Shown one piece after another: positions 4,350-26,307 of a DNA stretch of 27,133 nucleotides (position 1 is its first letter; each line of letters starts with the position of its first letter). Under the pieces are notes generated by a model that searched no databases, was not told the origin of the DNA, and saw only the letters and a list, made by a program, of their open reading frames with translations. Source of the stretch: a virus; IMG/VR virus record IMGVR_UViG_3300032086_003383, positions 1 to 27,133 of that record. One strand, given 5' to 3'. The position numbers and the translations under genes are program-made.

Positions 4350-5303
4350 CTACTTAAATATATCCTGCCAGTTACCTGTAGTGCTAGCTCGGGCATACTC
4401 AGTTGCTCTGTTTTCAAAGAAATTGGTATGCTCGACAGCATTTATCATATAGTCCAGCCAAGGAAGAGGATTACCGCTACTGCTAAAAATCTTCTTCATA
4501 CCTAACTGTAATAGTCTTCGATCTGCTATATATCTTATGTAAGCTTTTATTTCTTCAGGTTGAAGTCCCTTAATATTGCAGTTTTCAAACGCAATATCAA
4601 TAAAAGCGTCTTCTAACTCTACAACCCTCTCTGCCGCGCAGTATATCTCATACTTGAGTTCATCATTCCACAGTTCTGGGTTTTCCCGGATATACTCTTT
4701 AAACAGTTTAGTCATTCCCTCTACATGAAGTGTCTCGTCACGAATACTCCAAGTAACTATCTGACCCATGTTTTTCATCAAATTGTTTCTCGGAAAGTTT
4801 AACAAGATGGCAAAACTGCTAAATAGTTGAACCCCTTCTGTGAAACCGCTATACACTGCCATGGTTTTAGCAAGCTCTTTTGGCGTATCGCTACTAAAGT
4901 TCGATAAGTAATCATGTTTATCCGCCATAGCTTTTACATCCATAAACATCTGATACTCTTCTTCAGGAAACCCCAGAGTTTCAAGTAGAGTAGAATATGC
5001 TTCTTGGTGCACGGCTTCCATTGAGGCAAATGCTGACAACATCATTCTTATTTCGGGCGCTTTGAAATTCGGCAGATAGTGGGTTGCGTAGCCACAACAG
5101 ACATCTACATCGCTTTGAGTAAAGAACCTGAAAATATGACCGAGCAGACGTTTACTATCTTCATCAAGAGCCCTGTAATCTTTTAGATCATCTGCCATCG
5201 GAACTTCATCCGGCAGCCAGTGCATATGCTGTTGGCTTTTATAAGCCTCAAATGCCCACGGGTACTGAAACGGTTTGTAATAATTTCTTTCTTCTGTTAG
5301 CAT
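4350..5303 (-). CDS. nrdB: Ribonucleoside-diphosphate reductase small subunit (class Ia)
   Basis: A 317-residue R2 protein that holds the diferric-tyrosyl radical cofactor used by NrdA to make deoxyribonucleotides. Aligning by eye with E. coli NrdB, the iron ligands are D65, E96, H99, E156, E190 and H193, and the radical tyrosine is Y103 (motif SMEAVHQEAY). All are present and the D65-to-E96 spacing equals that of E. coli D84-E115, so the enzyme should be active. It is the last gene of the - strand block, separated from nrdA by three small genes. Its stop abuts the stop of the convergent + strand gene with no gap, so + strand read-through would be antisense to it. Confidence 0.95.
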   Translation of the reverse strand: MLTEERNYYKPFQYPWAFEAYKSQQHMHWLPDEVPMADDLKDYRALDEDSKRLLGHIFRFFTQSDVDVCCGYATHYLPNFKAPEIRMMLSAFASMEAVHQEAYSTLLETLGFPEEEYQMFMDVKAMADKHDYLSNFSSDTPKELAKTMAVYSGFTEGVQLFSSFAILLNFPRNNLMKNMGQIVTWSIRDETLHVEGMTKLFKEYIRENPELWNDELKYEIYCAAERVVELEDAFIDIAFENCNIKGLQPEEIKAYIRYIADRRLLQLGMKKIFSSSGNPLPWLDYMINAVEHTNFFENRATEYARASTTGNWQDIFK

Positions 5304-14714: not shown

Positions 14715-15208
14715 TAAATCATCCTTCTGTAGCTTTTACACGACTCTTCTGAGAAATCGTATATTTGCCAAGGCTCATTATCTAATAAAAGAACGTGAGC
14801 CCACTCTTTGCCCAGAGGGGCAGACTTCAAAATAAAAGGAGAGTTATGGCCTGCAAGCCATAATCTACAATAGTATCCTTTATACTCTTTAGTTTTTATT
14901 TTCATAGGTTTTACTGGTATATACTGCTCTTTCTTATAATAAAAACAGTTTCCTCTGCTATCTATGAAATTTTTGTGCTTGATTCTCATCAAGGCGACAA
15001 AATCCTCACACATCTTATTCAAATTGTATGTTGTATGAGGAGTTTGTAGCCTCCGCTTTCCTAGAGTGTCTCCTTTTTGATTTTTGTCATCTATAACTCT
15101 TTCTTGGTTAGTTAATAAGCCATCCCTGAAAGTTAGCTCTTCAGGAATGGCATACACCGGAAATGTTACTTTTTTAAGTATTTGACTATACGTCAATTCT
15201 ACCAACAT
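14714..15208 (-). CDS. Hypothetical protein between DNA polymerase and PhoH
   Basis: About 164 residues from ATG 15208, which overlaps the polymerase end by 23 nt; a GTG at 15244 would add 12 residues read from the polymerase region. The protein is basic in the middle (KGDTLGKRR, KPMKIKTKEYKGYYCRLWL) with paired aromatic residues and a C-terminal WQIYDFSEESC. Three Cys residues lie in the C-terminal half or near it, but not in a zinc-binding spacing. No family recognised. The stop shares one base with the PhoH start, so it is co-translated with replication genes. Confidence 0.65.
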   Translation of the reverse strand: MLVELTYSQILKKVTFPVYAIPEELTFRDGLLTNQERVIDDKNQKGDTLGKRRLQTPHTTYNLNKMCEDFVALMRIKHKNFIDSRGNCFYYKKEQYIPVKPMKIKTKEYKGYYCRLWLAGHNSPFILKSAPLGKEWAHVLLLDNEPWQIYDFSEESCKSYRRMI

Positions 15209-17459
15209 AAGTTTTTTCGAATTTGCCAAACGAATAGTCATCACCTATGTCAAAGTCACAACCAATCGGGCAACCTGGGATGGAGATACCTCGATCCCTT
15301 TGAATGCAAGTTTGCAATACCTGAGAATACATATCTACATGCTCTTCAGCAACATCTGCAAGAACAGAGTCATGCACAAGAGCAAACATATTAGCGTCTA
15401 TTCCGTCTGACTCTACAATTTCCTGTGCTTCCATTGCACCAATCAGGTTTACGTCTGATGCTGGCGATTGGACGATGAAATTAAGACCGGACCGTATGGC
15501 GTGGGCCACAGTCCCTTTGTTATCAGACTGCACATCAGGTAGCCTTCGCTTGCGGCCAAAATGAGAATACACGTGGCCAATACTAGCAATGAGCGCTTTG
15601 TTTCTGTCAATCCAAGCTTTGAGAGTACGGAAGTTCTTAAAGTATTGGTCGATGATTTTTTGTGCTTCTCCGACACTGAGGTTTCCTCCATCTTTGTTTA
15701 CCTGAGTGCTGATTGTGGGAGCACCCGCCCCGTAAATAATACCAAAGTTTACAGCTTTGGTAGCTTGCCTGTAGTCTGGATACAGATCTGCAATTTCTTC
15801 CACTTCGCAAGGAAGGTTGAATACATCCTTAGCTACTGTAGAGTGAAAGTTGGTTCCTGCCTTGAAGATTGCTTGCAGTTTCTTGTCTTTGGAAAGAACA
15901 GCAGCAATATAAATCTCGGCAGTGGTTAAGTCCATAGCAACAATTTTACGTCCGGGAGGTGCTTTGATGCAACCTTTTACAATAGGGTTGTCCCTAGGAA
16001 TTTGCTGCATATTCATTTTTCCACTGGAGGACAGGCGCCCGGCTACAGTTCCATGCAGATTAAAGTTGGTTCTAAGCCTACTATCTTTATTTAGCTGTGG
16101 AATAATCTTATCGATATAAGTATTCTTCAACTTAGTATCTTTACGAATATCCAGTATCATACTAGGAACTTCGTGTTCTTTTGACAAAACAGCTAGAGCA
16201 TCAGCACCAAGAGAGTGAGCACCTTTTTCCGTCATAATTCCAGTAGGCTTTAGACCAATGTAGTCAAAGAACAACTTACGAAGCTGAATAACACTGTTTG
16301 CATTGAACTCTCCATAGTCTTCGTGAAAGGACTTAACTTCCTCCATTTCAAACAGCTTATCTGTCATATCTTGGATATGATTTGTAAGAAGGGATTGAGC
16401 AGCAGCAAGCCTAGCCCTATCAAAAGGAACACCGTTATCCTGAACTTTCATAAGAAATCTGCAAGCAGGAATAAGGATGTCTTTGTAAACTTTTAGCAGT
16501 TTTGGATTACCACCAAGCAACGCTCTCTCAAACTTTTGAAAGATCATAAAGGTTACTGTAGCATCAATCGCTGCATAGTTCTTCATGACATCAAATGGAA
16601 TCCATTCCCACTTGAAATCATCTTTACGAATACCGTGCTCTTTACGATACTGCTCCATCCACTCATACATTGGCTTTTCGTAGTCACCGTAGTCGGTGTA
16701 CTTCATAGCAAGTTGCTTCAATCCATGATAGCCGGGACGCTCGTCAATAACATAGTGCATAAGCATAGTATCTTCAAAGCGAGGAATAGTAACGTTGAAA
16801 TGATACTCGAACATAGGTATGTCGAACTTAGCATTATGAAATACAGCACGCTTCCAATTGAAAAGCTCTTGTAGCTTTTCTTCTACTTCTTCTGATATTA
16901 CATCGGCATCGATATAAGCACCAGTATCAGGAGAGCCACAGAGACTAATTCCAAGGATATGCCCATCCCTAGGATATAACCCACTAGTTTCTGAGTCGAT
17001 ACCGAAAAAGTCGTAATTAGAGTCGAGAACCTGCTGAATGTAGTCGAGAGCTTCTTGTTCATCTTGTATTCCTATAAAGTTTTCACCAATCTCTGCTTTC
17101 TTTTTATCACCAGAAATATACTGTTTGATATTGTCCACACTAGACTCTAACAGTCGTTTTGTTTCTGGCTTGAAAGACACCATAGCCGGATTTATAAGAG
17201 GAAGAAACTTATCATCTACGAGAGTTCCTGAGTACTCCATAACTTTTGTGGCCTTGGTGTAGAACTTTAGAGGTTCTGCACCAACAAGAATTATCCAGTC
17301 AAACTTGTCTGGGTCCATATCAATGTCAACATCTTTCTTTAGAACTTTTTTGAGTGCTGGGTCAGATGCTAACGAATACTGTTCAAAAGGCCAAGCATTG
17401 CCAAACACATCAACATAGTTGTTGCGGGAAGGCTTGGACTCTACAATAGCTATTTTCAC
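15186..17459 (-). CDS. Family A DNA polymerase with 3'-5' proofreading domain (T5 D9 type)
   Basis: A 757-residue replicative polymerase. Exonuclease motifs: D155-x-E157 (GIDSETSGL), HNAKFD and AAIDATVTF. Polymerase motifs: A at D510-E515 (MDLTTAEIY), B at R564-K568-F572-Y576 (RQATKAVNFGIIYG), C at H696-D697 (LVHDS). Motif A has Ile-Tyr after the Glu where most members have Leu-Arg. The position equivalent to E. coli Pol I residue 762 is Phe. Residues 1-130 precede the exonuclease and contain LVGAEPLKF and LPLINPAMVSF, loosely like a degenerate uracil-glycosylase fold. The ATG overlaps the lipoprotein gene by 4 nt. Confidence 0.95.
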   Translation of the reverse strand: MKIAIVESKPSRNNYVDVFGNAWPFEQYSLASDPALKKVLKKDVDIDMDPDKFDWIILVGAEPLKFYTKATKVMEYSGTLVDDKFLPLINPAMVSFKPETKRLLESSVDNIKQYISGDKKKAEIGENFIGIQDEQEALDYIQQVLDSNYDFFGIDSETSGLYPRDGHILGISLCGSPDTGAYIDADVISEEVEEKLQELFNWKRAVFHNAKFDIPMFEYHFNVTIPRFEDTMLMHYVIDERPGYHGLKQLAMKYTDYGDYEKPMYEWMEQYRKEHGIRKDDFKWEWIPFDVMKNYAAIDATVTFMIFQKFERALLGGNPKLLKVYKDILIPACRFLMKVQDNGVPFDRARLAAAQSLLTNHIQDMTDKLFEMEEVKSFHEDYGEFNANSVIQLRKLFFDYIGLKPTGIMTEKGAHSLGADALAVLSKEHEVPSMILDIRKDTKLKNTYIDKIIPQLNKDSRLRTNFNLHGTVAGRLSSSGKMNMQQIPRDNPIVKGCIKAPPGRKIVAMDLTTAEIYIAAVLSKDKKLQAIFKAGTNFHSTVAKDVFNLPCEVEEIADLYPDYRQATKAVNFGIIYGAGAPTISTQVNKDGGNLSVGEAQKIIDQYFKNFRTLKAWIDRNKALIASIGHVYSHFGRKRRLPDVQSDNKGTVAHAIRSGLNFIVQSPASDVNLIGAMEAQEIVESDGIDANMFALVHDSVLADVAEEHVDMYSQVLQTCIQRDRGISIPGCPIGCDFDIGDDYSFGKFEKTYVGRIDV

Positions 17460-17710
17460 TTAATTCTATGCTCCGCTATTAATCTACAAAACTTTGCAGG
17501 ATGAGGTCTTATATCCATATTTAGGTTTATTCTAGCAAACGCCCAGTCTGAAACATCGACGGGATACCCATAACTCTTTGCATTTGTCATACAAGACCTA
17601 AAAACTTCTTTCTTTGCTTGCTCTTTTACGCACTCTGCTGTAACACAATCCACAGGCGTAGAAGCACACCCTGCCAATAATAGTATATTATACATCAAAA
17701 TCCTTTTCAT
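17456..17710 (-). CDS. Small outer-membrane-type lipoprotein
   Basis: An 84-residue protein with a basic start (MKR), a hydrophobic stretch and a lipobox LAGC with Cys15 as the predicted lipidated residue. Ala at +2 avoids the inner-membrane retention signal, so sorting to the outer membrane is expected. Four further Cys (about 22, 27, 40, 74) could form disulfides in the periplasm. It sits between primase and polymerase, one base after the primase stop. A consensus promoter lies across its first nine codons, so it can only be made from read-through transcripts. A T5 Llp-like receptor-blocking role is possible by analogy; there is no clear sequence match. Confidence 0.7.
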   Translation of the reverse strand: MKRILMYNILLLAGCASTPVDCVTAECVKEQAKKEVFRSCMTNAKSYGYPVDVSDWAFARINLNMDIRPHPAKFCRLIAEHRIK

Positions 17711-17715
17711 GTCAA
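17687..17715 (-). promoter_or_regulatory. Consensus sigma70 promoter inside the lipoprotein start, for DNA polymerase
   Basis: On the - strand: TTGACA (17715-17710), 17-bp spacer, TATAAT (17692-17687). The TGA stop of primase (17714-17712) lies within the -35. The -10 covers codons 7-9 of the lipoprotein gene, so the predicted start (near 17680) is downstream of the lipoprotein ATG. The transcript would have about 220 nt of leader before the polymerase ATG at 17459. Confidence 0.75.
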
Positions 17716-18542
17716 CTCCCGTAAAGTCTTTTCCTCAAATTTTTTACCTGATTTTTTGACAGCTCACCTGGGTCTCCGCTTTTTAAGTTTACCACCCTAA
17801 AAGGAAACCCTTTGCAAATTTCTTTTACTTTCTCTGCTGCTTCTTTTCCTGCTTTATCTCCGTCGAATAAAACATCTATTCCCATTACTCCAGAAACTTT
17901 TAGTAGATCTAAATTTTCATGGTTAAATTTATTTACTCCGAAACAACATACAGCATTATCTAAACCCTTATCATGTAAGTTTAGCATGTCAAACAACCCT
18001 TCTACTAAAATTATTCTTCCCTGCAATGTATTTGCTTGAGGAAATAGGGGAGGACTTACATTAGGAGGCCAAAACCTATACTTTGCTTTCTGGGCCATTG
18101 AATAGTCTCTTCCTTGAAAGCATACTATTTTTCCTCCAGAATCTGTGATTGGAAAGTTTATTCTGTTTTTAAACTGCTCATCAGTATGCTCAAATGCATT
18201 GAACTTGGAATAAGTTTTAGGACTTATGCCTCTCCAATTACCTATGTATGGCATGTAGCCTTCTGGCATTTGCATACCAAAGTTATCTGATCTAAGTTTA
18301 GCAATGGCTCTCTTTAGGCTTTCTCTTTTGAGAGAGCTTTCACTAATATCTATGTTATAGTGTCGAAATATGCTGCCCTTGTGTCCACAAGAAAAACAAT
18401 TGAATATGCCCAATATTTTATCAACACGCATACTGGGGTTTCTGTCTTCGTGTTCAGGGTTAAGGCACTTAATTAGAAAATCTTGACCAGACTCTCTATA
18501 CTCTAACCCTCTTTCAATTAATACTTGCTCTACTTCGCTCAT
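17712..18542 (-). CDS. DNA primase (zinc ribbon plus TOPRIM)
   Basis: A 276-residue primase that should make RNA primers at the fork. The N-terminal zinc ribbon has C26, H31, C49 and C52 (CLNPEH, then CFSC). The TOPRIM domain has ILVEGLFD (E181) and LFDGDKAG (D227, D229). It is shorter than bacterial DnaG because the helicase-binding C-terminal domain is absent; the helicase is a separate protein encoded just upstream, overlapping by ATGA. This resembles a T7 gp4 primase half split from its helicase. Confidence 0.92.
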   Translation of the reverse strand: MSEVEQVLIERGLEYRESGQDFLIKCLNPEHEDRNPSMRVDKILGIFNCFSCGHKGSIFRHYNIDISESSLKRESLKRAIAKLRSDNFGMQMPEGYMPYIGNWRGISPKTYSKFNAFEHTDEQFKNRINFPITDSGGKIVCFQGRDYSMAQKAKYRFWPPNVSPPLFPQANTLQGRIILVEGLFDMLNLHDKGLDNAVCCFGVNKFNHENLDLLKVSGVMGIDVLFDGDKAGKEAAEKVKEICKGFPFRVVNLKSGDPGELSKNQVKNLRKRLYGS

Positions 18543-19912
18543 CCGTGCAATGCCTTGTGAATGTCGTCTTCTTCTGGATCGTCTCCGTCTTCAGGAATTA
18601 TAATAGAATTAGGACCAATCTTTAGACTGCTCCAATCCATTTCTGAAGCAAAGGAAGTATCATCATCTCCACTTCTCATTTTTGTGCAGTTAAGCTTCAT
18701 GTAAGGGTTATCGCCTTTACTAGCTTCAAGAGTAAAAGCAGCATCCGGAGAGTCAAGAATACCTTTAGCAAATCTTGCCTCCCCTGTAGCATCTATTTGA
18801 TAAGGAGATATTACTAGAATACCATAATCTTGTGCGAATGCTTTTAATGCTTTACTTACTTCTATTTGCTCTGTCCAGTCATATTGACCCATTCTGCTGT
18901 TATTGAATCCTCTTTTTACTTGGTTCACATAGTCGACAATTACTACTTTCGGTTGAAGAGTTGGCACTTTCTTATCTAACTCTTTTCTTATGTTCGCAAG
19001 TGTTAGACCGGACTCGTAGACTATGTCTACTTGCTTTGGTCTTAAAGGGTTTTTGCTTAATTCATTATGTAAAAGACTAAAGTCTCTTAGGCCTCCGAAG
19101 CCTCGTGGAGAGGACTTTACCCAATCATTATAAAGCTTTTCACCCTCTTCAAACCTAGAAGCCCACCATTGAGCAACGTCTAACTGCTCTTTTGGCCCCA
19201 AGGTATTATTTTCTATAGCTTTTGCATTTACTCCTGTAGAAATTGCACATATTCTCTGCATAGTTTCTCTAGCGCTCATTTCTATAGTAAAGTACATTAC
19301 GGAGGAACCTGACTGATATGTAGTAGATGCAATATTAGCACATACTATAGACTTACCTTGACCTCTTTTACCTCCAATTAGGACATAGTCTTCTGGACCA
19401 AACTTCTCTACTTCATCATAGTCGACATTCAATCCTAGAGGAACTACGTTGTCTAAGTACTCTTTAGAATAAAATAGCTCCATTCGTTGCATACTTTCGG
19501 CAGTGCCTTTAAGATCAACTTTGTCTTCAACTTTTAGTATTATGTTTTGAAGACTCTCTATGTTCTCCTTAGCAGATTCCATAGCTATAGAGTTTTCCAA
19601 GTAGTCTTCCAGCTCGGTCATAATCTCTAGTTGAGTAAATTCATTTTTCAGATACTCAAGAAGCGTATGGTTGTCTATATCAACACTTTCTACATTTTGT
19701 AGAGCGAGAAGTCTTTCTCTAAGCTTGTTATCTCTTACTGAAAGCTGAACAGCGTCAAAGGAAGGAAGTTCCCGGAACTCCTCAACATGCTTGTCTATGA
19801 AGGACCAGATGGATTGATATTCGCGGGGAAGATAGTGTTTATGGAGGTCAGCCCAAGTATCCAAATCACTTTCCGTGATTATTGCTTTTAGCAGGATACT
19901 TGCAAGGTTCAC
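18539..19912 (-). CDS. DnaB-type replicative helicase
   Basis: A 457-residue RecA-fold hexameric helicase. Walker A is GGKRGQGKS (180-188), Walker B VVIVDYVNQV, and an Arg-finger region follows (CTKMRSGDDD). The N-terminal 130 residues are helical, as in DnaB N-terminal domains. Start: TTG at 19915 and GTG at 19912 are adjacent in frame; GGAG lies 7 nt before the GTG, so I chose that. It overlaps the primase by 4 nt, which fits a helicase-primase pair. A strong hairpin terminator lies just upstream, so expression is set by read-through from the D5-like gene. Confidence 0.92.
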   Translation of the reverse strand: MNLASILLKAIITESDLDTWADLHKHYLPREYQSIWSFIDKHVEEFRELPSFDAVQLSVRDNKLRERLLALQNVESVDIDNHTLLEYLKNEFTQLEIMTELEDYLENSIAMESAKENIESLQNIILKVEDKVDLKGTAESMQRMELFYSKEYLDNVVPLGLNVDYDEVEKFGPEDYVLIGGKRGQGKSIVCANIASTTYQSGSSVMYFTIEMSARETMQRICAISTGVNAKAIENNTLGPKEQLDVAQWWASRFEEGEKLYNDWVKSSPRGFGGLRDFSLLHNELSKNPLRPKQVDIVYESGLTLANIRKELDKKVPTLQPKVVIVDYVNQVKRGFNNSRMGQYDWTEQIEVSKALKAFAQDYGILVISPYQIDATGEARFAKGILDSPDAAFTLEASKGDNPYMKLNCTKMRSGDDDTSFASEMDWSSLKIGPNSIIIPEDGDDPEEDDIHKALHG

Positions 19913-19943
19913 CAAATGACTCCGTAATAAACTTTAGACGAGG

Positions 19944-19974
19944 AAAAGCCAGAGGAGTCGTCACTCCTCTGGCT
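19944..19974 (-). terminator. Hairpin terminator/attenuator between the D5-like gene and the helicase
   Basis: On the - strand a perfect 12-bp GC-rich stem (19974-19963 with 19958-19947; AGCCAGAGGAGT pairs ACTCCTCTGGCT) with a 4-nt loop, followed by TTT then CC. The T-run is short, so termination is probably partial. It starts about 19 nt after the D5-like stop and would make that protein more abundant than the downstream helicase and primase. Confidence 0.75.
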
Positions 19975-19992: not shown

Positions 19993-20715
19993 CTAGCCAG
20001 CAGCTTTGGCTTGCTTAGCAGCTCCGTCATAGTTCGTAGCCGTCAAGCCACGACGCGTCAGCATCGTCTTAACACCACGAACAGTTTTGCCGATTTGATC
20101 TGCGATTTCTTCAACAGACATTTCAGCTACGTCGACGCCCTCAAGAGGGTCAGTCTTTGCAGAGGCACGGCTCTCTTTCTGTGCAGGGATAGCGTCGATT
20201 TGACCACCACGCAGCATGGACAGTGCCTTACCACGAATCTGGTTAATCGTCTTTCCAAGAGCTTCTGCGATATCTTCGAGATATGCGCCATCACCAGCCA
20301 TAGAAGCTACAGTTGCTTCTTCCTCTTCAGAGAAGCTACGAACAACTTCACGCTGAGGAGCGGGCTTGACATGCTCATGGAGCTGCATAGACAGGATCTT
20401 GCCTTGGATTTGCTTCGCATTGAACTCACCGCCAGCGAATGCTTCAGCGATTTGAGCGTATGTGAAGTTACCACTGTTATCTTCTACGAAGCTGCGGAGA
20501 GTGTCCTCTTGATCTTCGCTAAAGGTCTTAGTGGTGGGTGCGGCAGAAGATTCTACTTCAAAACCTTCTTTACGCAGCTTAGCAGCAACCGAACGAACAG
20601 TCGTCTCAAGCTGTTCTGCTGCTTCGCTAACAGTATCCTGAGATACTGGAGACTCGTCACCGACAAAATCAACCAGCTCTTGCCAGCGTTCGTCGTTCCA
20701 CTTGGGTAATGCCAT
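19993..20715 (-). CDS. T5 D5-like DNA-binding / transcription factor with repeated HTH domains
   Basis: A 240-residue protein built of about four helix-turn-helix-like units at roughly 1-55, 62-115, 124-170 and 195-235 (for example VEEIADQIGKTVRGVKTMLT and LEDIAEALGKTINQIRGKAL). T5 D5 is an abundant early DNA-binding protein of similar size needed for replication and late transcription, and the gene position next to a split ligase matches. ATG 20715 has a good AGGAG site and follows the ligase stop by 4 nt; longer in-frame starts re-read the ligase end. A strong hairpin follows the gene, consistent with high, separately tuned expression. D5 identity is from pattern memory and synteny. Confidence 0.75.
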   Translation of the reverse strand: MALPKWNDERWQELVDFVGDESPVSQDTVSEAAEQLETTVRSVAAKLRKEGFEVESSAAPTTKTFSEDQEDTLRSFVEDNSGNFTYAQIAEAFAGGEFNAKQIQGKILSMQLHEHVKPAPQREVVRSFSEEEEATVASMAGDGAYLEDIAEALGKTINQIRGKALSMLRGGQIDAIPAQKESRASAKTDPLEGVDVAEMSVEEIADQIGKTVRGVKTMLTRRGLTATNYDGAAKQAKAAG

Positions 20716-20719
20716 TATA

Positions 20720-21460
20720 TTACTCCTGTAGTAATTGATTAATATTTGTAACAACCGAGACACCCCTGTCTCGCGCTTTTCTAGTTTTGGAGGACTCTAC
20801 TCCGCTTTCATTGATAAGAATGGATACTTCCTTTGTAACAGAAGAAACAACCCTGTAACCCATCTTAACCAAAGCTTTTTCGGCCTCCGCTTTGCTTTTG
20901 TAGGACGACAATCGCCCTGATATACACACAACTTCTTTAGTTGACTGTGGTATAAAGTCTTTTGAAACCTCCCAACTAAAGGGAAGCATTACATCAAAAT
21001 TATTTTTGTACCAAAACATCAGATTTTCCGTAGCTTTTGGACCCAATCCAGCCTCTTTACACTTTTCTTCTGTTAGTTCATGAATATCTTCTATTACAGA
21101 ACAAAGCTTAGTTGATGCTGTTTTTCCAATAAGTGGAATAGACAAGGCTGGCAAAACCTCTTCAAGAGAACATTTTGTAGATTTTTTTATTTCTTCTAAG
21201 AGTTTTTCTGCCAGCTTTTCGGAGTTTAGTGCACCTGAAATAGTTTCAAACGATAAATAGTATATCTCATAAGGACTTTCTATTTCTAGCTTTTCTATTG
21301 TAGAAGGACCAAACCCTTTGATTTTGAGTGTCTTGGTGAAGTGCTCAACTTGTTTTTTATTCTTTGCAGAGCACAAAGGATTGTGACAATAAAGAATATC
21401 GTTCTCCCAGAAAAGCTCTTCTTCACAAGAAGGGCAATGTTCTGGAGGTAATATTTTCAT
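20720..21460 (-). CDS. NAD+-dependent DNA ligase, C-terminal subunit (zinc finger, HhH, BRCT)
   Basis: A 246-residue protein that equals the C-terminal half of bacterial LigA. The Cys4 zinc finger is C9, C12, C25 and C30; helix-hairpin-helix segments follow (LKIKGFGPSTIEKL, ALSIPLIGKTAST); residues about 170-246 form a BRCT domain (EVVCISGRLSSYKSKAEAEK). It has no nucleotidyltransferase motif, which is on the separate protein at 22287-23207. T5 also encodes ligase as two subunits. It is the first gene after a consensus promoter, with AAGGAA before its ATG. Confidence 0.92.
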   Translation of the reverse strand: MKILPPEHCPSCEEELFWENDILYCHNPLCSAKNKKQVEHFTKTLKIKGFGPSTIEKLEIESPYEIYYLSFETISGALNSEKLAEKLLEEIKKSTKCSLEEVLPALSIPLIGKTASTKLCSVIEDIHELTEEKCKEAGLGPKATENLMFWYKNNFDVMLPFSWEVSKDFIPQSTKEVVCISGRLSSYKSKAEAEKALVKMGYRVVSSVTKEVSILINESGVESSKTRKARDRGVSVVTNINQLLQE

Positions 21461-21481: not shown

Positions 21482-21531
21482 AGTGAATATTATACGGCTA
21501 TTGACCTAAAAAGTCAAGAACTATTTTTTCT
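21482..21531. repeat. Promoter cassette copy 2 of a 50-bp near-duplicate
   Basis: Partner of 12722-12771, 6 mismatches in 50 bp, including the TTGACT/TTGACA region, AGGTCA in the spacer, the TATAAT box and an AAAAAATAG tract upstream. Here the TAG of that tract is the actual stop codon of the GIY-YIG-like gene. Confidence 0.7.
21489..21517 (-). promoter_or_regulatory. Near-consensus sigma70 promoter for ligase C-half and D5-like unit
   Basis: On the - strand: TTGACT (21517-21512), 17-bp spacer, TATAAT (21494-21489). Predicted start near 21482, leader about 22 nt, with AAGGAA before the ATG at 21460. It would drive ligase C-half, the D5-like gene and, past the hairpin at 19944-19974, helicase and primase. 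Confidence 0.87.
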
Positions 21532-22290: not shown

Positions 22291-23207
22291 ACTCTGCGAA
22301 CCACTCTAGGAATGATTTCTCCAGATCTAATAATTTCTACCTTGCAGCCTAGCTCTAAACCTAGATCTTCTATGTACTTCATATTGTGCAAAGTAGCTCT
22401 GGATACAGTGGCGTCCCCAATCTTTATAGGCTCTAGAATACCTACTGGGGCTACAACACCTGATTTGCCTACTTGCCAGACAACATCAACTAGCTTTGTA
22501 ACTACGCCTTCTTGCTTCTCCTTGAAAGCATATGCGCCCCGAGGGTGGTGCGCTGTGTATCCCTTAGAGTCAAAATCTTGATAGTAGTCTTCTCTAAAAA
22601 CTAAACCATCGTGAGGAAACTGACCCCAATCACTATCTATGACGGTGTTAAACCCCTGCATTTTTAAGTTCAGCATGTCTTCGGACCAGAAACTATCAAG
22701 CACATAAGGTTGAAGACCGTATGCTATAAAGGTTAGATCTCTTTCTGCAAACTCTTGGGGGTCTTTTAGGCCCAAAGCGCCCGCAGCATAATTACGGGCA
22801 TTTTTTATGCTTTTAGGAGCAACAACTTCTCCAGTAACCTGGAAAAATCTATTGCTTACTCCAATTCTTTTTGGAAAGTCTAGCATACGCATATTCTCTG
22901 TAATGTCTTTGCCTTTCTTTCCATCCCCTCTGGTGAGCGCATAGGCAAAGTGACCCTCTACATAGTAGAGGGCCACCGCCGCGCCGTCCAGTTTAGGACT
23001 TACAACAGAGGAGGATAGTTGTACGGGTGTATCTCCTTCATATACTTTCTGAAGGCTATACATTTGAAACTCGTGAGGCACATCACCGTCCATATAGCCA
23101 ACTGGGTCGTAATGACAGTCAGCACATAGTATGTCGAACGCGGCATCACTGATAAGTGGGTTGCCTGCGTAATATGCCTCGGAACATTTGTCTAAAAACT
23201 CTTTCAT
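22287..23207 (-). CDS. NAD+-dependent DNA ligase, N-terminal subunit (adenylation and OB domains)
   Basis: A 306-residue protein equal to the catalytic half of bacterial LigA. The Ia-like NAD-binding start has AYYAGNPLISDAAFD; motif I is KLDG with the adenylated lysine K72. Motif III-IV regions (VTGEVV, DGLVF) follow, then the KEKQEGVVTKLVDV motif V and an OB fold (VVWQVGKSGVVAPVGILEP, RATLHN). It stops where the zinc finger would begin; that half is encoded at 20720-21460. The ATG lies only 7 nt after the -10 of its promoter, so the promoter's mRNA would have almost no leader. Confidence 0.92.
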   Translation of the reverse strand: MKEFLDKCSEAYYAGNPLISDAAFDILCADCHYDPVGYMDGDVPHEFQMYSLQKVYEGDTPVQLSSSVVSPKLDGAAVALYYVEGHFAYALTRGDGKKGKDITENMRMLDFPKRIGVSNRFFQVTGEVVAPKSIKNARNYAAGALGLKDPQEFAERDLTFIAYGLQPYVLDSFWSEDMLNLKMQGFNTVIDSDWGQFPHDGLVFREDYYQDFDSKGYTAHHPRGAYAFKEKQEGVVTKLVDVVWQVGKSGVVAPVGILEPIKIGDATVSRATLHNMKYIEDLGLELGCKVEIIRSGEIIPRVVRRV

Positions 23208-23214
23208 TATGTAT

Positions 23215-23243
23215 ATTATAGGGCCTTCTGGTTAAAATGTCAA
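23215..23243 (-). promoter_or_regulatory. Consensus sigma70 promoter for the ligase N-half unit
   Basis: On the - strand: TTGACA (23243-23238), 17-bp spacer, TATAAT (23220-23215). The TGA stop of the PC4-like gene (23242-23240) lies in the -35. The start point predicted by usual spacing is 23208, one base before the ligase ATG. Confidence 0.87.
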
Positions 23244-24065: not shown

Positions 24066-24773
24066 TTAAAATTCGAATGAAAATCCTGCTTTTACAAGCG
24101 TTTCACTTCCAGATCGACCAAACCCTAAAGTGACCGCTTTTCCGTCTTCACTTTGAGCTGCAAAACCTACACTAACTCCTGTAGACCCAGCAATGTGTGA
24201 AGCGCCAAACGATACTCGGTTTCCCTCTCCATTTGGTAAATGGATGTCGAGAGCAGAGCTTGCTGCCAAGTATCTGGAAAATTCTCTACGATAGTCTCTA
24301 GCATCTCTGCCGTCTCGACCATCTTTGCCATCTCTTCCATCTCGTCCATCTTTTCCATCAGCACCATCCTTTCCTGCAACTCCTTGTTCGCCTTGTGGAC
24401 CTGCTGGACCCATTGGACCTTGTTCACCCATCGGACCCTGCTCGCCTTGTGGACCTGCTGGACCCATCGGACCCTGCTCGCCTTGTGGACCCGCAATTCC
24501 TTGCTCGCCTTGTGGACCCATCGGACCCGCAATTCCTTGTTCGCCTTGTGGACCTGCTGGACCCATCGGACCCTGCTCGCCTTGTGGACCCATCGGACCC
24601 TGCTCGCCTTGTGGACCTGCTGGACCCATCGGACCCATCGGACCTTCTGGACCCGGAGGTCCTACAAATAATTCGCATTCGTTTTCGATAAGAACAGGAT
24701 GATCACAATCCTCATTTCCAGCAAAAGCAGATGCTGATGTTATTAGAGCACCAAATAATACTACTTTCTTCAT
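24066..24773 (-). CDS. Secreted collagen-like protein with a YadA-like trimeric autotransporter anchor
   Basis: A 235-residue protein. Residues 1-18 form a Sec signal peptide cut near AFA|GN. A short head (19-37) has two Cys (23, 33). Residues 38-157 are 40 uninterrupted Gly-X-Y triplets: Pro-rich at first ([12 protein letters not shown]), then charged (GKD, GRD). Residues about 161-235 read like a YadA anchor: a short helix ([11 protein letters not shown]), then alternating Gly/aromatic strands ([34 protein letters not shown]) ending in Phe, the usual outer-membrane barrel signal. Collagen and YadA anchors both trimerise, so the parts are compatible. Inferred: a surface-displayed trimeric fibre made in the infected cell. 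Otherwise it could be a virion fibre, but the signal peptide argues against it. Confidence 0.8.
24303..24662 (-). repeat. Collagen-like Gly-X-Y coding repeat
   Basis: Forty codon triplets encoding Gly-X-Y with a repeated GPAGPQGEQ block (four near-copies) and GPMGPQGEQ variants. Repetition at the DNA level is strong, so copy number may vary by slippage or recombination. Not a CRISPR: there are no unique spacers and the period is 9 nt with longer blocks. Confidence 0.9.
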
Positions 24774-25260: not shown

Positions 25261-25289
25261 ATTATAGAGGAAGTGACCTCGCATGTCAA
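25261..25289 (-). promoter_or_regulatory. Consensus sigma70 promoter for the HTH, collagen-like, tRNA and PC4 unit
   Basis: On the - strand: TTGACA (25289-25284), 17-bp spacer containing GAGGTCA, TATAAT (25266-25261). The TGA stop of the upstream membrane-protein gene (25288-25286) is within the -35. The leader to ATG 25169 is about 84 nt, the longest of the promoters that lie between genes. Confidence 0.88.
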
Positions 25290-25917: not shown

Positions 25918-26307
25918 CTATAGGTCGTAATAGCAGTGATACATCTTTTCACCTACCTCTGAAACGAGAGCGGCGTATACTACATGCGGGGCATGGTCCT
26001 CGGGAACATACACAAGCATTTTTGGAAGCAGATCTGACATTCTGTTGTCAAGTTTACGAATTAACGCTTTAGCTTTCTTATCTAGTTTACGCTTTTCTAG
26101 CGGGGTGAAAGTTTCCAAGAAAGCTTCTTTGTAAGAAAGCCACTCTGACCTATCCATCCAATACATATCATACTTAACCACTAGGTGATCGAACCCTTCA
26201 CAGTTAGCATAAGTTTGGGCGTCTTCTTTACTTACCCTCGCTAATACTGGTGTGGTGGTCATGAGTGCTGCTATAGCAGCTCCTGCACACAGTTTTTTCA
26301 ATTTCAT
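25918..26307 (-). CDS. Secreted periplasmic protein with a signal peptide
   Basis: A 129-residue protein with a clear Sec signal (MKLKKLCAGAAIAALMTTTPVLA, predicted cut near residue 23). The mature part is helical and basic in the middle (LEKRKLDKKAKALIRKLDNRM) and has two Cys (about 36 and 125), one near each end, that could form a disulfide after export. No family recognised. TAATG coupling to the HTH gene upstream places it in an early-type unit, so it may act on the host envelope soon after infection (inference). Confidence 0.7.
   Translation of the reverse strand: MKLKKLCAGAAIAALMTTTPVLARVSKEDAQTYANCEGFDHLVVKYDMYWMDRSEWLSYKEAFLETFTPLEKRKLDKKAKALIRKLDNRMSDLLPKMLVYVPEDHAPHVVYAALVSEVGEKMYHCYYDL

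Follow-up and report, generated by a model that had tools for sequence, protein, structure and literature searches.

The window, by which we mean the whole virus record of 27,133 bases that was analysed, carries a T5-like replication module on its minus strand, and within this module a promoter directed at the family A DNA polymerase gene overlies the start of a lipoprotein-like open reading frame (ORF). We consider it probable, judging from the sequence, that this is an inherited early polymerase promoter, the counterpart of Ppol in phage T5, and that a lipoprotein-like gene was inserted behind it with start codon and signal peptide overlying the promoter. As a promoter it looks ordinary and is probably ancestral; what is unusual is the added gene and its overlap with the promoter.

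The module encodes a split NAD ligase, a D5-like regulator, a DnaB-like helicase, primase, the lipoprotein-like ORF and the polymerase, together with a PhoH-like protein, a further helicase and single-strand binding protein (Table 1). Ligase subunit B, D5, helicase, primase and polymerase follow the same order in the cultured phages Proteus vB_PMC-PL1, Klebsiella K32PH164C1, T5, Vibrio phi 3 and Vibrio Hades, and in these five no gene is annotated between primase and polymerase. Elsewhere the window encodes a collagen-repeat protein (24066-24773) with a signal-like start and a C-terminal match to a YadA-type anchor, and a small ORF (25918-26307) whose product begins like a signal peptide and is without a match in Pfam.

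Table 1. Coordinates of the features discussed, numbered from the first base of the window
Feature	Position	Strand	Remarks
Family A DNA polymerase	15186..17459	-	GTG start overlapping lipoprotein TGA (GTGA, 17459-17456)
Lipoprotein-like ORF	17456..17710	-	84 codons; MKRILMYNILLLAG-C lipobox; five cysteines
Expected transcription start	17680	-	7 nt past the -10 box; position predicted by a spacing rule on sequence
Polymerase promoter (P_pol)	17687..17715	-	TTGACA-N17-TATAAT, then ATACTATT; sequence match and positional conservation in relatives
DNA primase (CHC2/TOPRIM)	17712..18542	-	TGA stop inside TTGACA
DnaB-like replicative helicase (D6-like)	18539..19915	-	
Terminator-like hairpin between D5 and helicase	19947..19974	-	12 bp, then TTTCC; conserved in relatives
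D5-like transcription regulator	19993..20715	-	scanned as 19993-20763; start placed at ATG 20715
Nearest strong upstream promoter, before ligase subunit B	21489..21517	-	TTGACT-N17-TATAAT; same place in L087, L008, L011 and L006

The polymerase promoter and its conservation

P_pol lies at the primase/polymerase junction, oriented towards the polymerase gene, and presents -35 and -10 elements of the sigma70 type, TTGACA (17715-17710) and TATAAT (17692-17687), which match the consensus at 12 of 12 positions across a 17-nt spacer. The primase stop codon, TGA (17714-17712), is contained in TTGACA, and only one base, 17711, lies between it and the ATG of the lipoprotein (17710-17708). Six of the 29 promoter bases precede or touch this ATG and the rest fall within the ORF, so that the promoter overlies codons 1-8 with TATAAT forming codons 7-8. 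A preliminary description had placed this motif over the end of primase and the start of the lipoprotein, which is exact, but had extended it to codon 9.

The window holds six sites of the form TTGACW-N15..19-TATAAT, each of them on the minus strand (26992, 25289, 23243, 21517, 17715 and 12757). The mean in 100 shuffles was 0.06, and none of the 100 reached six. Five sites match at 12 of 12 positions, that at 21517 at 11 of 12. In P_pol the TATAAT is followed by ATACT, one base away from ATATT, the discriminator of T5 early promoters according to PMC7472727; at the other five sites the following sequence starts with AT and then varies. On the shuffle count, taken with the conservation among relatives, we reject a chance match.

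At three of the six window promoters (23240-23243, 25286-25289 and 17712-17715) the TGA within TTGACA terminates the ORF that lies upstream, and a TTGACA-type -35 element supplies the primase stop in 11 of the 23 promoter-bearing loci listed. The promoter before ligase subunit A (window 23207-23243) ends 7 nt from the ATG of that gene, as it does in L087 and L011, and the message would therefore be nearly leaderless. Near-leaderless polymerase messages are likewise expected in L026, L037, L031 and L160 (6-7 nt).

For comparison 157 loci were fetched, these being stretches and not whole genomes, of which 148 hold both primase and polymerase and form 64 clusters, window type included. In the nearest relatives, which are 84-89% identical and represent two distinct junctions on five contigs (L007, L011; L008, L009, L010), the primase stop is again inside TTGACA or TTGACT with TATAAT at 17 nt, the polymerase ATG follows 24 nt past TATAAT, and there is no lipoprotein ORF. 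The sequence of a sixth contig, L012, stops just past the promoter. In an alignment of the window with L007 and L009, all three have TTGAC and TATAATATA in common, as well as the end of primase and the beginning of the polymerase; the ORF is an extra segment. By the preliminary description, relatives without a TATAAT inside the coding sequence would count against it; literally that is the case, the coding sequence itself being absent, yet the promoter is kept.

A promoter matching at least 10 of 12 positions is present between the primase end and the polymerase in 16 of 19 clusters with a short gap, in 7 of 10 with a long gap and in none of 35 in which the genes overlap. Two of the seven long-gap promoters (L045 and L043) are weak, have 16-nt spacers and lie inside cargo ORFs. 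When the 120 nt before the polymerase are counted the values are 16/19, 4/10 and 1/35, respectively; random 122-nt stretches of the same loci gave such a match in 604 of 12,800 cases. The 35 overlapping clusters, without a junction promoter, outnumber the clusters that have one and include all ten at 60-66% polymerase identity. P_pol is very probably a real promoter, because its position is conserved in relatives down to approximately 49% polymerase identity. The -10 box lies 6-35 nt from the polymerase in 22 of the 23 listed promoter loci; only the window type, at 227 nt, departs from this. The end point of the measurement was the codon that aligns with the first polymerase residue, a start codon in 12 of the 23, so some distances are off by a few codons.

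The most likely reading of these comparisons is that P_pol served the polymerase ancestrally and that the lipoprotein gene arrived later. That the gene is ancestral and was lost in the relatives is disfavoured; among the 157 loci, stretches as they are, the ORF is found only in L006, L086 and L162, three overlapping loci of one contig near-identical to the window.

The junction is an insertion place for differing cargo genes in other clusters, the same place as that occupied by the window ORF. The cargo consists of HNH endonucleases (L119 and L045), a DNA methylase accompanied by another ORF (L031), ORFs of 308 (L160) and 538 (L047) amino acids without a Pfam match, a membrane-protein-like ORF of 50 amino acids (L064) and small ORFs (L118 and L074); the Pfam scan of junction cargo left out L074 and L043. 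In the four cargo clusters with a polymerase-adjacent promoter (L119, L031, L160 and L064) the cargo stops before or at the promoter. A cargo ORF running over the promoter is seen in the window type only.

The lipoprotein-like reading frame

Is the extra segment a gene? We judge it likely. Inspection by eye of the N-terminus of the encoded protein identifies a charged N-region, a hydrophobic stretch and an L-A-G-C lipobox, in line with the lipobox rule for bacterial-type lipoproteins. The predicted signal peptide is short, with Tyr-Asn within it. Cysteine accounts for five of 84 residues, compared with 60 of 4,977 in 13 other proteins. The ribosome site has the strongest Shine-Dalgarno pairing of 13 gene starts, -9.3 kcal/mol as a crude duplex energy, where the same crude measure gives -5.8 kcal/mol for the polymerase GTG. 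The base composition resembles that of neighbouring genes. Over the 224 nt that run from immediately past TATAATATA to the polymerase start, the frame stays open in 0.33% of 10,000 mononucleotide shuffles, and any frame does so in 0.85%. The ORF is unchanged in L086, which is 99.8% identical to the window over 17.4 kb.

Beyond the one near-identical contig no relative of the ORF, and no diverged copy, was found among viral contigs, phage records and genome contigs. Pfam and NCBIfam gave no match, and no endonuclease family was matched in Pfam, NCBIfam or PHROG. PHROG matches have E values of 0.0079 to 0.17 and are confined to residues 1-32; the Cor profile aligns at E 0.17 with residues 1-29 only and with nothing past the signal peptide. 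Assignments as a spanin, Llp or Cor were rejected given the weakness and N-terminal confinement of these matches. A 37% match in Vibrio phage vB_pir03 (E 0.08) straddles two hypothetical ORFs. Single-sequence structure prediction produced three helices with a mean pLDDT of 56.3 and a pTM of 0.35, a model therefore too poor for a fold search. A likeness to superinfection-exclusion lipoproteins serves as a lead only.

The lack of relatives past that one contig, the blank Pfam and NCBIfam results with PHROG no better than E 0.0079, and the low-confidence structure model would all suit a different reading, in which the segment is a spacer or untranslated leader and its lipoprotein character a matter of chance. 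We hold this to be unlikely, given how seldom shuffled sequence leaves the frame open and given the combination of a lipobox, many cysteines, a favourable ribosome site and a stop codon that overlaps the polymerase start exactly.

Two proposed messages across the junction

If a small lipoprotein-like gene was inserted between promoter and polymerase in the window lineage, its ribosome site, start codon and signal peptide would have been placed on the primase end, the promoter and the start region. P_pol would be read by the host sigma70-type RNA polymerase. The predicted start, near 17680, is the first base of codon 11 and some 221 nt from the polymerase GTG at 17459, so the short message would begin inside the ORF and serve the polymerase behind a leader of approximately 220 nt. 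That such a transcript omits the lipoprotein ATG and signal peptide and leads into the polymerase, as the preliminary description proposed, agrees with the coordinates. The lipoprotein would therefore need read-through from upstream. It would be translated only from a long message, begun at the 21517 promoter and carrying ligase B, D5, helicase and primase.

The window scan lists no other minus-strand promoter of at least 10/12 between 21517 and 17715, and in agreement with the preliminary description, the interpretation of which is partly supported overall, the lipoprotein would be made only by read-through from the ligase/D5 unit. A weaker promoter (below 10/12), or one not of the sigma70 type, is possible before the helicase gene.

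The long message must also cross the terminator-like hairpin that follows D5. Its stem is a perfect 12 bp (-23.5 kcal/mol, z -4.91), although the T run is short and the simple window scan did not list it. A hairpin with a T-rich tail occurs in the first 150 nt of the D5/helicase gap in 53 of 59 clusters, window type included, as against 46 of 2,950 random 100-nt stretches. None of the 59 clusters has a promoter of at least 10/12 in this gap. Since the hairpin is conserved and the gap offers no strong promoter, expression of helicase, primase and lipoprotein probably relies on transcripts that pass the terminator. By eye, the Proteus and Klebsiella phages also have a hairpin between D5 and helicase.

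On the long message the lipoprotein stop overlaps the polymerase start, and translation of the two could therefore be coupled. The preliminary description mentioned neither this overlap nor the hairpin after D5, nor that the promoter probably predates the gene. With fold z scores of -0.09 (17680-17420) and +0.88 (around the polymerase start), the leader shows no special RNA structure. In Vibrio phi 3 (L167, ~4387-4421) and Hades (L168, ~4386-4422) a hairpin with a T run, attenuator-like by eye, lies between the polymerase promoter and the polymerase gene.

Might ribosomes enter the lipoprotein frame of the short message itself at an internal codon, and so make a protein that lacks the signal and is coupled to the polymerase? 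CCTGTGGAT contains a GTG in this frame, an ATG in the same frame lies further along, and the ORF stop overlaps the polymerase GTG. By eye, no ribosome site is present just upstream of the internal GTG, nor does any homologue display a conserved internal start, and we find the proposal very unlikely.

The overlap could also be read, as the preliminary description implies, as a regulatory device, a temporal switch whereby firing of P_pol shuts off the lipoprotein. Promoter and start codon do overlap anatomically, and in T5 the early Ppol transcripts rise and then vanish (PMC7472727). However, both transcription units run in one direction. The relatives have the promoter without the lipoprotein gene, so the overlap needs no regulatory cause; we regard a switch as very unlikely.

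A bolder version has the same DNA acting as promoter and as code for an export signal, the cell making either the lipoprotein from the long message or extra polymerase from the short one. On this view an ATG of the promoter spacer would have been taken up as start codon when the lipoprotein arose, and the added gene, by sitting on an essential promoter, would be guarded from deletion. Taken as a whole this is improbable. Our preferred reading, insertion behind an inherited promoter, would itself mean that a gene settled onto an essential promoter without breaking it and that an export signal is spelled by promoter DNA.

Comparison with T5 and T4

In the T5 record AY543070 a promoter is annotated ahead of pol, at 70987-71061, where it covers the end of the primase gene; two more (P-K28a/b) precede ligB, and D10 has one (P31A) at its end. 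Judged by neighbouring genes, the pol, ligB and D10 promoters would answer to the window sites at 17715, 21517 and 12757. Promoters at the T5 positions, ahead of ligB and pol and at the end of the downstream helicase, appear to recur in the uncultured lineage of the window and its close relatives. PMC7472727 reports early transcripts from Ppol, mapped in vivo by primer extension, that appear at 20 min and are no longer present after 30 min; from its name and place we infer that this Ppol is the promoter before pol in AY543070.

T5 resembles the window in having ligB, D5, helicase, primase, promoter and pol as neighbours and the promoter across the primase end. The differences are in the details. 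In T5 the leader is short, promoter and pol having no ORF between them, and helicase and primase are separated by an HNH gene. The primase stop of T5, TAA, overlaps TATAAT, behind which comes ATATT; the -35 element is weak (best 9/12). In the window it is the -35 element that contains the primase stop. A word search of the titles and abstract starts of open papers returned, among the matches listed, no case of a polymerase promoter overlain by an added gene in a T5-like phage.

T5 Llp and Cor are, like the window product, small phage lipoproteins, but the Cor profile result shows no sequence relation past the signal peptide. Llp is expressed early, according to a reference title in PMC9586334, which also places its gene beside that of pb5, the receptor-binding protein, unlike the window ORF.

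A further parallel is with the free-standing homing endonucleases of T4, where the promoter of an essential replication gene also lies inside an inserted upstream gene. According to PMC2988022, downstream-gene promoters lie inside inserted endonuclease genes, for example the gene 32 promoters within segG, which favours retention of the insert; several inserted endonuclease genes are promoter-less and read from upstream. The window shares two traits of the T4 seg/mob genes, an inserted gene absent from close relatives and a downstream promoter inside its ORF. It differs in that the cargo is lipoprotein-like and not a homing endonuclease, and that the promoter sits at the start codon and signal peptide. 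If our interpretation holds, a T5-like phage offers a test of the T4 idea that a buried essential promoter shields an insert from deletion. T4 homing endonuclease genes already provide cases of promoters lying within inserted genes, and the window would represent a variant with lipoprotein-like cargo.
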